Below, piece after piece: positions 26,135-33,591 of a DNA stretch of 64,000 nucleotides (its first letter is position 1; every line of letters starts with the position of its first letter). The stretch lies in NCBI RefSeq assembly GCF_024362205.1, contig NZ_CP101462.1, forward strand, positions 2,886,001 through 2,950,000. Reading direction: 5' to 3'. The notes beneath the pieces were generated by a model. The model was not told where the DNA came from, did not search any database, and saw nothing but the letters and a program-made list of their open reading frames with translations. Both the position numbers and the translations under genes were made by a program. This DNA comes from Exiguobacterium aurantiacum. Its GTDB lineage: Bacteria > Bacillota > Bacilli > Exiguobacteriales > Exiguobacteriaceae.

Positions 26135-26167
26135 AACGAGGAACGGCTAGTTGAGCCGTTCCTCGTT
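26135..26167. terminator. Bidirectional terminator after gldA
   Basis: A 13-bp perfect stem (AACGAGGAACGGC) with a TAGTTGA loop; the stop codon of the convergent gene is in the loop edge. Confidence 0.92.
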
Positions 26168-26617
26168 CGTTTGTTTGCGGGTGACGAAAGATAGCGCCAC
26201 CCCGATTGCCATACAACTGACCGTCAAAACGAAAAACGTCAATTGGTTCGCATAGATGATGTTCGTGAACTGGTTCCATCCAGATGCATACGCCGCGTTC
26301 TCAGAAACACGGATACCAGCCCGGAGCGAAGCCGCTTGGCCGGCATTGATATAAAGACCGATTCCTGCCATGACGAGACTCCCGACTAAAAGACCGACTC
26401 GTCCCAGGCGATGAACAGATTCCACCGTGCGCCGAGCCAGCCGGATGGTGATCCAGATGAACAACAGGACGAACGGCCAACCGATGAGCAAGACGAGCAC
26501 GTATGGATTCCCTTCGCCCGCCGCTTCTGTGTAGGCGGCGGTCATCGTCTCGCCGAGTTTGAATAATACAAACGTAATGAGCGTGATGATGAACCACGCC
26601 TTGATCAATTTCTCCAT
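26147..26617 (-). CDS. Four-helix membrane protein, unknown function
   Basis: 156 residues with four hydrophobic helices (about 5-25, 41-60, 73-92, 126-147) and an outside loop between the last two. The C-terminus is charged (TRKQTNEERLN). ATG 26617 follows a weak GGTGTTG site. It is convergent with gldA and downstream of another small membrane-protein gene, from which a terminator separates it. The family is not recognised. Confidence 0.65.
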   Translation of the reverse strand: MEKLIKAWFIITLITFVLFKLGETMTAAYTEAAGEGNPYVLVLLIGWPFVLLFIWITIRLARRTVESVHRLGRVGLLVGSLVMAGIGLYINAGQAASLRAGIRVSENAAYASGWNQFTNIIYANQLTFFVLTVSCMAIGVALSFVTRKQTNEERLN

Positions 26618-26678: not shown

Positions 26679-26897
26679 TCAGGCTTTCGGACGGACGGCA
26701 TAATAAATCAGAATGACGAGCCACGTCCAAACGCCGGTGAAAATCCCGATAATCCCGACGATAAAGAACCCGAGCGGCATCATCGATTTCGTCCGATCAT
26801 AGTCTTTCCACATGTTCGATAACCCTTTGATGTTGAAATACAAAAAGGCGAAGAACAAGACGAGCAACAATAACGGTAAACCAAAAATGAGTTCCAT
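26679..26897 (-). CDS. Small two-helix membrane protein
   Basis: 72 residues from ATG 26897, 8 nt after AAAGGAG. Two hydrophobic helices (MELIFGLPLLLLVLFFAFLY and LGFFIVGIIGIFTGVWTWLV) flank a charged loop, KGLSNMWKDYDRTKSM. A longer opening to 26996 lacks a ribosome site. The family is not recognised. Confidence 0.6.
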   Translation of the reverse strand: MELIFGLPLLLLVLFFAFLYFNIKGLSNMWKDYDRTKSMMPLGFFIVGIIGIFTGVWTWLVILIYYAVRPKA

Positions 26898-27097
26898 ACG
26901 CTCACTCCTTTCTAGTCTCAACCATTCTCTTATACTCAGTGTACTACTTCCCTTCGCACACCACATCGGGCTCGCGCAGTACAGGGAGCAGGTCAAGAGG
27001 CGGAGACAGTCCTGTTCATTATTCCCTAATTTCTCTTCTTTTCATCCTTAAAATAACCGGGAAAAGAGGAGTATCCAGCAAAAAGGGGGTCTTTCCT

Positions 27098-28015: not shown

Positions 28016-28351
28016 ATGTGGATTGTCATGAACAAGCTAGACGTTGAAAAAGGAAAAGTCGCTGCGGTCACGGCCCGTTTCCAGACGACGAAAGGCATCG
28101 AGTCGATGGATGGGTTTGTCCGGATGCAAGTCTTGACCGATACGTCGGATGAGGCGAAAGATCAAGTCGTCATCATGACGACTTGGCGCGATGCGGCGAG
28201 CTTCGAAAATTGGCGCGACAGCGGAGCATATAAACATGCCCATAAAAAACGGGACGACGGCACTTCTGAAGTGAAGCCCATCGTCCTTGGAAACACGGTC
28301 ACCCAATATGAGGTCGCCATCGAGCACGGCGCCTCATCCGATGACGTATAA
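28016..28351 (+). CDS. Antibiotic biosynthesis monooxygenase domain protein, IsdG-like
   Basis: 111 residues. The residues that define IsdG/HmoA heme-degrading enzymes appear in place: Asn in MWIVMNKLDV, Trp in FENWRDS and His in YKHAHKKR. It would cleave heme to release iron. ATG 28016 lies 8 nt after GGAGG; ATG 28010 is too close. TATAAT at 27976-27981 may be its -10 box. No Fur box or heme-uptake gene is nearby. Its last 18 bp overlap the end of the convergent HEPN-CBS gene. Confidence 0.78.
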   Translation: MWIVMNKLDVEKGKVAAVTARFQTTKGIESMDGFVRMQVLTDTSDEAKDQVVIMTTWRDAASFENWRDSGAYKHAHKKRDDGTSEVKPIVLGNTVTQYEVAIEHGASSDDV

Positions 28352-29035
28352 AATATCTTGCGGCCGGATAATACCGAGCAGCGGTTCATCTTCTTGCCCC
28401 GTCTCGGTGATCAACAAGGCGTCGAGACGGACCCCATCTTTCATGTTGATGAAATGATGGTGCGCCTCGATGACCGACGTCTCTTTCGCGATAAACCGAT
28501 ACCGTCGCAGGTGCGGGTCGTGATGGAGCACGTGCTTGACTTGAACGCCTTCGAGTGACATATGCGGCCCGTCGACCGTTTCGGCGAGCCAGCTGGTCAC
28601 TCCTTTTTTCGTCAATAATCCGCGCCACGTGCCGTCATGATTATAGACAGGGAACTGCGAGTAGTTCTTATCCCGAATCTCACCGAGCACCTTGACCAAC
28701 GAGTCGTCGGCGTCGAACGTCGTCACGATTTTACGAAACATCGGGATGACTTGACGCGGATGGAGGAGTTCTTTTTCCACCTCGAGAATCAAATTGACGA
28801 TCGATTCATGCGGTTCGGCGATGATGAAGTCCGGCTCCCGACGCTCGTGGACGATGGCGTTCCGCAACTGACTCATTTGATGTAAATCTTCTTTATACCG
28901 GTCGATAATCGGATTATGTTTGGCGAGACGATTGACCATGTTACTGAAACTAAAATGTTGCCCGTTCCCCATCTCTCGACTCAAATAATCCTCAATCCGG
29001 TGATACGACGCGATAAATTCTTCAGCTCGACTCAT
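28334..29035 (-). CDS. HEPN-like domain fused to a CBS pair
   Basis: 233 residues. The N-terminal helical part (1-70) ends in LRNAIVHERR, where R58-N59 and H63 form the RNxxxH motif of HEPN ribonucleases. Two CBS domains follow (about 80-150 and 150-233; motifs SQFPVYNHDGTWRGLLT and DALLITETG...GIIRPQDIL), which usually bind adenine nucleotides. The CBS part resembles small c-di-AMP binding proteins such as CbpB. ATG 29035 follows AAGGAG by 7 nt. It is convergent with, and overlaps, the IsdG-like gene by 18 bp. Confidence 0.78.
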   Translation of the reverse strand: MSRAEEFIASYHRIEDYLSREMGNGQHFSFSNMVNRLAKHNPIIDRYKEDLHQMSQLRNAIVHERREPDFIIAEPHESIVNLILEVEKELLHPRQVIPMFRKIVTTFDADDSLVKVLGEIRDKNYSQFPVYNHDGTWRGLLTKKGVTSWLAETVDGPHMSLEGVQVKHVLHHDPHLRRYRFIAKETSVIEAHHHFINMKDGVRLDALLITETGQEDEPLLGIIRPQDILYVIG

Positions 29036-29147
29036 ATATTCACACTCCTTATCGCCTATATATACCCTATTTTTTTCGAGTCCGAGCAGGAAACGGTGAT
29101 CCAATCTCGAATCAACAATAAATCATCTTTGAAATGGAGGCGGTCTC

Positions 29148-31803: not shown

Positions 31804-33591
31804 TTACGGACGACGTGGACCTTCGTTGTCATCAAGTGAACGATTGTCTTGATCTGGAGTGACGTTTTCATGGAACGGGTTCGGTTCTGGACCGTCCACG
31901 TTCGTCACGTCAGATTGTGAGGTTTGCGGACGATTCGTTTCACGTTTCAACTCTTGTTTCGTTTGATCCGCTTCACGCTTCGACTGCTGCATACCTTGTT
32001 TAGCCTGTTGCTTCGCAACTTCGGCTTCTTGATTCATTTGTGCTTTCTCTTGTTCGAGACCTTCTTTTGACACTTCTGTCTCATCGATCCGTTTCTCAGC
32101 TTTCTTCAAGTAACGAGCCGCTGTCTCGCGTCCACCGAGACCGAAGGCAAGACCGAAGGCGAGGGCGACCGCACCGAGGATAAGCAAGAATGCCGTGTTG
32201 ACGATCATCGGGGCAATGCCGAGCTGGCTGACTGCCATGAAGAAGGCGATACCGAGAATCGCATATTTCGCGACGTGACGCAAGACGCTCGGTTGACCTG
32301 CCCCATCTACGAGCACACTGCCAACGAGACGTTCTGCCATGTTCGCGAGCCAGAAACCGACTGCCAAGATGACGATGGCTGCAATAACCATTGGCAAGTA
32401 GGCGAAGATCGCTGTAGCAAGCGAAGCCATGAAGTCGAGGTTCGCGACTTGAAGAGCTTCCGACACGAACAACAAGATGATGATGATTTGAACGATTGTT
32501 CCGATCACTTGCGCGATCGATGTCGATGACGACGAGCGGCCACCGAGACCCATCTTGCTAGCAAGCGAATTGACGCCTAGGTTTTCAAGGAGTGAAACGA
32601 CGACACCCTTCAACCACTTGGCAATGAACACACCGGCGAGAATCAAGACGATGGCTACGATAATGTTTGGAATCATCGCCAAGACGTCGTTGAGCATCGA
32701 GATGGCCGGATCCGAGATCCCGCGAATATCAAGTGCTTCAAGCGCTGAAATCGTGACTGGGATCATAATCAAGATGAAGACGATCGTTCCGACCGCTTTC
32801 GCAAGACTAGAGCCTTTCACATAGTCAGCCAAGTGAAGTTTTTCGGCAAAGCGGTTAAGACCTGCCGCTTCCAAGAACTTCGTCAAAATATCACGCACGA
32901 TTTTCGCAACGATGTATCCGATCGCAAAGATGAGTGCCGCAGCGACGAGTTTCGGAATGAAGGCAAGGAAACTGTTCAACAAGTCTTCAAACGGTCCACT
33001 GATGCCTTGCAAACCAAGCGCATCAAGTACAGCCGGAAGAGCTAGCAATAGGACAAGATAGAAGACGATATTAGCGACAGTGTCGACCCATTTCGTCTGA
33101 TTGACGCTTGTCGACTCTTGGCCTGTCTTCTCCATCAACTTATTCAAGTTGAGACGATGACCTGCCATTTGAATGGCCTTTTTCAAGAGTGTGGCGATAA
33201 TCCAAGCGACGAGCAGGATGAGACCCGCTTTGATGACGCCTGTGATCAAGCCAGAGAAACCGGCATAGATTTGGCTGAACGGTTGTGTAATCGCAGGCAC
33301 GTTCATAAATTCAAAGATGATTAAGAATGCGAGCAGCAATACACCAAAGAAGACGACTTTACCGATGATTCGCTCAGGCGTCCACCGTTTCTCTTCTTTG
33401 CTCGGTTTTCCAGGTTCACCTTCTTGTTTAACACCGACACGATCGTCAAGGCGTGCTTTGCGAAGCGCTTTGCGCGTCACGTTTTCAAGAACTTTCGCCA
33501 AAATGAATCCGACGACTAAAATGACCAATGCGAGCAAAAGCTCAGGTAGCCATGACATGAACGTGTTGAAGTTGTACGTAGTATCGTTCAT
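31804..33591 (-). CDS. Mechanosensitive ion channel-type protein with repeated TM units
   Basis: 595 residues. At least four repeats of a long TM helix pair (for example FIPKLVAAALIFAIGYIVAK, MIPNIIVAIVLILAGVFIAK, YLPMVIAAIVILAVGFWLA) as in the conserved TM helix family linked to MscS, ending with LAFGLAFGLGGRETAARYL, an MscS-like pore-end segment. The last 90 residues are hydrophilic, with a Gln/Lys/Glu-rich coiled coil (about 505-560) and an acidic, Pro/Asn-rich tail. It may protect against hypo-osmotic shock. ATG 33591 follows AGGAGG. A SigB-like promoter lies upstream. Confidence 0.85.
   Translation of the reverse strand: MNDTTYNFNTFMSWLPELLLALVILVVGFILAKVLENVTRKALRKARLDDRVGVKQEGEPGKPSKEEKRWTPERIIGKVVFFGVLLLAFLIIFEFMNVPAITQPFSQIYAGFSGLITGVIKAGLILLVAWIIATLLKKAIQMAGHRLNLNKLMEKTGQESTSVNQTKWVDTVANIVFYLVLLLALPAVLDALGLQGISGPFEDLLNSFLAFIPKLVAAALIFAIGYIVAKIVRDILTKFLEAAGLNRFAEKLHLADYVKGSSLAKAVGTIVFILIMIPVTISALEALDIRGISDPAISMLNDVLAMIPNIIVAIVLILAGVFIAKWLKGVVVSLLENLGVNSLASKMGLGGRSSSSTSIAQVIGTIVQIIIILLFVSEALQVANLDFMASLATAIFAYLPMVIAAIVILAVGFWLANMAERLVGSVLVDGAGQPSVLRHVAKYAILGIAFFMAVSQLGIAPMIVNTAFLLILGAVALAFGLAFGLGGRETAARYLKKAEKRIDETEVSKEGLEQEKAQMNQEAEVAKQQAKQGMQQSKREADQTKQELKRETNRPQTSQSDVTNVDGPEPNPFHENVTPDQDNRSLDDNEGPRRP

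Follow-up and report, generated by a model that had tools for sequence, protein, structure and literature searches.

Most of what is known about HEPN ribonucleases comes from toxins and from effectors of immunity. In the type VII toxin HepT, the HEPN motif has the form RX4HXY and carries a modifiable tyrosine, while in Csm6/Csx1 (CARF-HEPN) a nucleotide-sensing domain gates a HEPN RNase, which makes these proteins a mechanistic analogue of the protein considered here, with a CARF rather than a CBS sensor and a C-terminal HEPN domain. Anantharaman et al. (2013; PMC3710099) drew attention to fusions of HEPN and CBS domains and, in their account of them, proposed ligand-controlled RNA stability. 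A single-protein CBS+HEPN anti-phage system, DS-11, was validated in 2026, and its defence, as described there, requires a CBS residue together with the HEPN catalytic residues (PMC13092281). Our literature search found no paper on the particular HEPN-CBS family described below.

The gene under study belongs to Exiguobacterium aurantiacum and lies in a 64,000-nucleotide stretch of contig NZ_CP101462.1 (hereafter the window, from whose first letter positions are counted). Judged from its translation and domain content, its product is very probably a fusion of a small HEPN domain, which would cut RNA, with a CBS pair that would sense nucleotides. Proteins of this two-part build, their active-site motif unaltered, occur in many Gram-positive bacteria.

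The gene and its invariant motif

The gene occupies 28334..29035 on the minus strand, running from an ATG at 29035 to a stop codon ending at 28334, and encodes 233 amino acids. The start Met is common to the orthologues and the window protein, and by direct reading a Shine-Dalgarno-like AAGGAG (29045..29050, minus strand) lies 9 nt upstream of the ATG; a promoter scan found no promoter. The HEPN RX4H motif, RNAIVH, is at residues 58–63 (28847..28864, minus strand). The original prediction had placed this motif and a CBS pair in one protein, which the translation and Pfam confirm, and had made its reading depend on conservation of R58 and H63 in orthologues. Both residues are indeed invariant. 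Together with N59, they occur without exception in the 82-member family alignment, which comprises 16 Exiguobacterium orthologues and 66 others and from which two partial Rhodococcus copies (L038 and L041), a second L041 fragment, and a broken-looking copy (L119) were excluded. Shuffles of the window protein yield RN...H in 4.1% and RX4-6H in 97% of cases, and RN...H occurs at one site, RNAIVH itself, among the 57 ATG-initiated window ORFs of at least 150 aa. Since the three residues are conserved in 82/82 members, a chance motif is excluded.

Among 33 compared members, identity to the window protein falls to 21%. Only six columns are invariant in the 82-row alignment (L51, L57, R58, N59, H63, and A73), all of them in the HEPN half. 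Mean identity within Exiguobacterium (16 rows) is 93.7% for HEPN, 79.7% for CBS1, and 75.4% for CBS2; among 46 other members the gap is small (39.2, 35.2, and 33.6%, respectively). By sequence, the motif is conserved in the manner that defines RX4-6H members of the HEPN superfamily, and an RX4-6H RNase that is active would be expected to keep R58, N59, and H63 invariant, as is seen here.

Fold of the N-terminal domain

The HEPN domain is assigned to residues 1–94 (28754..29035, minus strand) from an AlphaFold2 model, VIA-align comparisons, and weak Pfam matches that are mostly to HEPN families. Modelled alone, these residues are all-helical (pLDDT 87.1, pTM 0.79), with helices at 3–22, 30–38, 42–46, 48–62, and 77–91. 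In a second look with VIA-align, the best eight rows are all HEPN proteins (Z 7.2–9.1), headed by 1wwp (Z 9.1, rmsd 3.4, 90 aligned residues), whose title names only a Thermus protein and which we take to be a HEPN protein, and followed by 8xeh (8.3), 6m6w (8.0), 7bxo (7.9), 5yep (7.8), 6m6u (7.7), the sacsin HEPN domain (7.4), and 7ae8 (7.2). The first unrelated row has Z 6.2, with Csm6 (5.4) and AbiV (5.0) below it. For a helical bundle, a Z below about 13 may be no more than middling, and Foldseek with the N-domain alone returned no match with E < 1 (best E 1.6; rank 1, not significant, was a HepT complex chain). The assignment of the fold therefore depends on the consistency of the VIA-align list, taken together with the sequence profiles and the motif.

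As for the profiles, the family N-domain profile searched against solved structures aligned R58..H63 with LRNxxxH of HepT (6m6w, E 0.41), ranking it after a TrwJ protein (E 0.078), neither match being significant. In Pfam, the window protein has sub-threshold matches to DUF4145 (0.0039), HepT-like (0.028), and DUF3644 (0.078), and no Pfam HEPN model reaches its cut-off; for DUF4145 (PF13643), scores were 17.7 bits for the full length and 20.1 bits for the N-domain against a gathering score of 23.1. Among 34 family N-domains at E ≤ 0.01, the weak matches were mostly to HEPN models, namely HepT-like (8), Apea (5), DUF4145 (4), RiboL-PSP (4), and DUF3644 (1), with non-HEPN matches to DUF6548 (2) and BRO1 (1). 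Taken together, the N-terminal half, as modelled, is a HEPN helical bundle, and the comparison of residues 1–80 with HEPN folds that had been proposed as a check on the prediction comes out HEPN-like for the modelled residues 1–94.

The CBS pair and its probable nucleotide site

Pfam PF00571 detects two CBS stretches (E 2.8e-9, 37.6 bits against a gathering score of 24). CBS1 covers about residues 95–155 (28571..28753, minus strand), as delimited by PF00571 and the structural match of residues 92–233, and CBS2 covers about residues 156–233 (28337..28570, minus strand), as delimited by the structural match, with the GIIRPQD segment that holds R224 and D227. Residues 92–233 match solved CBS pairs with Z 11.3–12.8 (among 50 matches listed), including DarB, CbpB, and AcuB, and a full-length fold search likewise had CBS-type proteins among the matches listed. 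The two-domain model, at pTM 0.49, places HEPN and CBS relative to each other without confidence.

Outside the Exiguobacterium orthologues, CBS2 largely retains G-I-I-T-P-x-D, with D227 in 64 and T224 in 56 of the 66 members. By contrast, position 224 is R, not T, in all 16 Exiguobacterium orthologues, the window protein included. In CBS1, where the CBS motif usually has D/N, position 145 is G in all 16 of these orthologues and mostly G in the family. Since CBS2 retains D227 (and usually T224) while CBS1 has G145, there is probably one nucleotide site per chain, and given R224 in CBS2 and G145 in CBS1, nucleotide binding may be altered in the Exiguobacterium proteins.

A CBS pair could also serve a protein in which the HEPN domain plays no RNase role, the invariant R/N/H being kept for RNA binding or a dimer interface and the whole acting as a nucleotide-responsive scaffold comparable to DarB with Rel. 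CBS pairs such as DarB do bind partners, and the structural matches include 8acu, a structure of DarB with Rel; some HEPN families, moreover, are described as having no motif (PMC3710099). However, R58, N59, and H63 correspond to the signature by which active HEPN families carry out catalysis, and they make up three of the only six invariant columns; we therefore find a scaffold quite improbable and continue to favor a catalytic HEPN domain.

Distribution of the family

The protein is present in 19/19 Exiguobacterium genomes, named loci being up to 96% identical to it, and a match occurs in 1/19 genomes of the other genus of its family. A second, diverged copy is carried by two of the 19 Exiguobacterium genomes, while the window's own genome has no second HEPN-profile site (1 match at E ≤ 1). 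Full-length relatives were found in 51/299 Bacilli genomes, counted from the listed rows of 100 matching genomes; in the other 49 the matches are weak (E 1.9e-7 or worse) and nearly all to the CBS part, one G054 row spanning 7–153. All 37 full-length Bacilli genomes outside Exiguobacterium were taken in, with the second copy of G128 left out. Across Bacillota, full-length relatives are present in 30/398 genomes, that is, 31 matches at E ≤ 1e-15 less G489, which matches in the CBS part only; of the 31, 20 were added, 5 were already included, and 6 were left out. Further copies, some partial, are on Chlorohelix, Rhodococcus, and Corynebacterium plasmids, and one member is in IMG/VR. In a tree calculated without 8 Exiguobacterium rows, clades mostly match taxonomic families; for example, 18/18 f3 rows were grouped (100/99).

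Gene context and the question of a partner

The window gene is not part of an operon-like group: azlCD is transcribed away from it on one side, and a gene for an ABM-domain protein is transcribed towards it on the other. Among 15 named Exiguobacterium loci, an azlC-like gene is on one side in 14 and an ABM-like gene on the other in 13. The prediction that the protein is not paired with an antitoxin holds: no antitoxin partner of the gene was found, and an MNT nucleotidyltransferase gene is not among the seven window neighbours scanned for domains (Fe-ADH, VanY, ABM, AzlC, AzlD, HD/HAMP, and MS-channel), a scan that omitted two small ORFs at 26147–26617 and 26679–26996. The window also has, at 31804–33591 on the minus strand, a gene for a 595-aa membrane protein with five MS_channel_1st_1 stretches.

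One might suppose that the gene is a HepT-like type VII toxin whose antitoxin has been lost, and several of the top structural matches are indeed to HepT, accompanied by a weak sequence match to NF047751 (E 0.0042). Yet the tyrosine of RX4HXY is missing, as Tyr two residues past H63 is found in 0 of 62 aligned rows (the later 20 rows being excluded), whereas the title of the HepT structure 6m6w names Y104, and the adjacent genes encode AzlC- and ABM-domain proteins, not MNT. Such an origin is thus very hard to credit, and a putative RNase without an antitoxin is the better description.

At other loci, neighbour genes, mostly without domain annotation, were clustered, and no gene partner conserved across lineages was found in this clustering over the family loci. 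Partners are local only: an lspA-type gene at five loci, a shared gene order at seven f3 loci, and purN/purD-like genes at five f105 loci. No same-strand neighbour lies within 60 bp at 40 of 68 non-orthologue loci. Also 40 of 68 is the number of loci that have two or more neighbour families, counted over five genes, in common with another such locus, a count that includes close relatives and one plasmid pair and in which most neighbours are without annotation; these common neighbour families suggest stable placement. In three of the 68 loci (L132, L142, and L144), the family gene was not among the ORFs that had been picked. By eye, the f105 loci with purN/purD-like genes near the HEPN-CBS gene are L134, L137, L138, L139, and L140, and in 4/5 f105 loci a gene for a conserved protein of 828–854 aa directly precedes it.

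Copies in defence islands and on mobile elements

The two second copies in Exiguobacterium (L042:4150-4845 and L043:5067-5762) are about 38% identical and lie within defence islands. Next to the G014 copy are type III R-M genes and a helicase that carries an MTES_1575 nuclease domain, and the run of genes around the G013 copy includes those for a PDC-S18 protein and a UvrD-like helicase. Plasmid copies are found within a few kb of DNA methyltransferases. On C. glutamicum plasmid pBL90, a broken-looking copy (L119:5926-6504) adjoins SIR2 and DUF87 genes; it is annotated only as a 285-base CBS gene, and the match is longer.

These settings raise the alternative that the protein is, like DS-11, a single-gene anti-phage effector (abortive infection), in which a nucleotide change upon infection would be sensed by the CBS pair, the HEPN RNase would become active, and growth would stop. 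DS-11 is itself described as a CBS+HEPN anti-phage protein (PMC13092281), the second Exiguobacterium copies are in defence islands, plasmid copies are near DNA methyltransferases or, in the broken-looking case, beside SIR2 and DUF87 genes, and weak PADLOC matches include a CARF-HEPN model, matched by 5 of 34 family members (best E 0.00087). PDC-S64 is matched by 5/34 members as well (best 0.00027), while for the window protein the defence libraries gave nothing beyond weak matches, one in PADLOC (DzbB, E 0.02) and one in PHROGs (E 0.092). Against this, the orthologue is present in every one of the 19 Exiguobacterium genomes, between ordinary genes, the common neighbour families at 40/68 other loci point to stable placement, and the window protein scores 17.2 bits against a cut-off of 260 for the DS-11 model (NCBIfam NF053863), over residues 102–154 in the CBS part only. 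A further argument comes from Enterococcus, as discussed below. We consider a dedicated anti-phage role unlikely for the window gene, and a regulator remains our preferred reading, since a fixed chromosomal gene in Exiguobacterium is likelier to be a regulator than a passing defence gene.

A phage-borne family was considered and rejected, as four viral-contig scans gave a single contig (L046 = L110). A phage collection gave three matches, all in unannotated records, of which the longest resembles host chromosome. L040 (OR846607.1), labelled as an Enterococcus phage, carries bacterial housekeeping genes (fhs-, lspA-, and pyr-like ORFs by eye) and seems to be host chromosome; in L039 (OR849199.1), a 2.2-kb fragment labelled as a Listeria phage, the genes ahead of lspA come in the same order.

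The family gene directly precedes an lspA-type gene in five loci, namely the Enterococcus-labelled record and four further ones, Peptidase_A8 being confirmed for L040 only. In Enterococcus, EF1723 is given as lipoprotein signal peptidase II (PMC7117660), and EF1724 of E. faecalis is listed as a CBS domain-containing protein scored ‘Fitness Important’ (dVal 0.020) and among the genes separating enterococci from Vagococcus (PMC7701990). Because of the gene order at these five loci, EF1724 is probably a member of the family, a placement drawn from gene order and the published annotation. If so, a family member contributes to growth in broth to which no phage was added, as that study reports, which speaks against an exclusively anti-phage role, and its fitness score hints at a housekeeping role, although insertions in EF1724 could be polar on lspA.

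Proposed function

An RX4H HEPN domain and a CBS sensor in one protein indicate a ligand-gated RNase. We hypothesize, with a probability of roughly 60%, that the protein works as an RX4H ribonuclease dimer whose activity depends on an adenine nucleotide at its CBS pair. The predicted fold, the motif, the conservation, and the gene context are what the analysis shows, whereas dimerization, cleavage, ligand, gating, and role are what we infer. Two subunits would pair, as other HEPN dimers do, and bring their R58/H63 motifs together into a single composite RNase site. A nucleotide of the adenine type (AMP/ADP/ATP, Ap4A, or c-di-AMP) would bind to the C-terminal CBS pair, the site with D227 in CBS2 being the likeliest. 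Its binding would turn the HEPN dimer on or off, and RNA turnover or translation would thereby be tuned to the nucleotide state of the cell. The physiological role may thus be stress control, as the original prediction had it, or housekeeping or defence, and some of the mobile or defence-island copies may serve defence. More tentatively, Bacillota might have a vertically inherited, chromosomal family of HEPN-CBS RNases that acts as a housekeeping nucleotide-to-RNA switch for normal growth, as the fitness score of EF1724 would suggest, and from which mobile defence copies were derived, or the reverse; this broader scenario we regard as possible, though doubtful.

If a widely retained chromosomal HEPN protein carries its own nucleotide sensor and lacks an antitoxin, metabolic state would be tied directly to RNA cleavage. 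The RNase half of such proteins goes unnoticed because the plasmid records examined annotate them only as ‘CBS domain-containing protein’.

Comparison with known systems

The window protein is like HepT in fold and RX4H motif and unlike it in having an extra CBS pair and no adjacent MNT gene. With the c-di-AMP-binding DarB/CbpB (YkuL) it shares the CBS-pair fold (Z 11.3–11.8), whereas its score for the CbpB/DarB model NF041630 (E 9.1e-5, 22.4 bits) is far from the cut-off of 125, and it differs in its N-terminal HEPN domain; in the window's own genome, the CbpB model has 5 matches, none over the cut-off. Csm6, the analogue in mechanism, appears among the structural matches of the N-domain at the Z of 5.4 given above.

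DS-11, as described, is similar in combining CBS and HEPN domains in one protein (PMC13092281), and by analogy it supports the principle of a ligand-controlled HEPN-CBS design. The CBS matches fall at about 83–195 of the 305-position DS-11 model, which suggests a different layout. In a search for DS-11 itself among Bacillota, 175/199 genomes matched the model at E ≤ 0.001 and 0/199 exceeded the cut-off, while 13/14 control genomes matched too, and these are therefore general CBS matches. Among 34 family members at 1e-3, 9 match the DS-11 model and 10 match IMP dehydrogenase.

The closest precedent in concept is the set of HEPN-CBS fusions described by Anantharaman et al. (2013), with the same fusion of HEPN and CBS and the same proposal of RNA stability and nucleotide sensing, although, compared by description, their examples (Pelobacter gi 118580987 and alr3009) are not the window protein, and some add an HD domain (PMC3710099). 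Both the HEPN-CBS kind of protein and the functional proposal are already known from the 2013 and 2026 accounts, and the main interest of the present family is its chromosomal, antitoxin-free setting.
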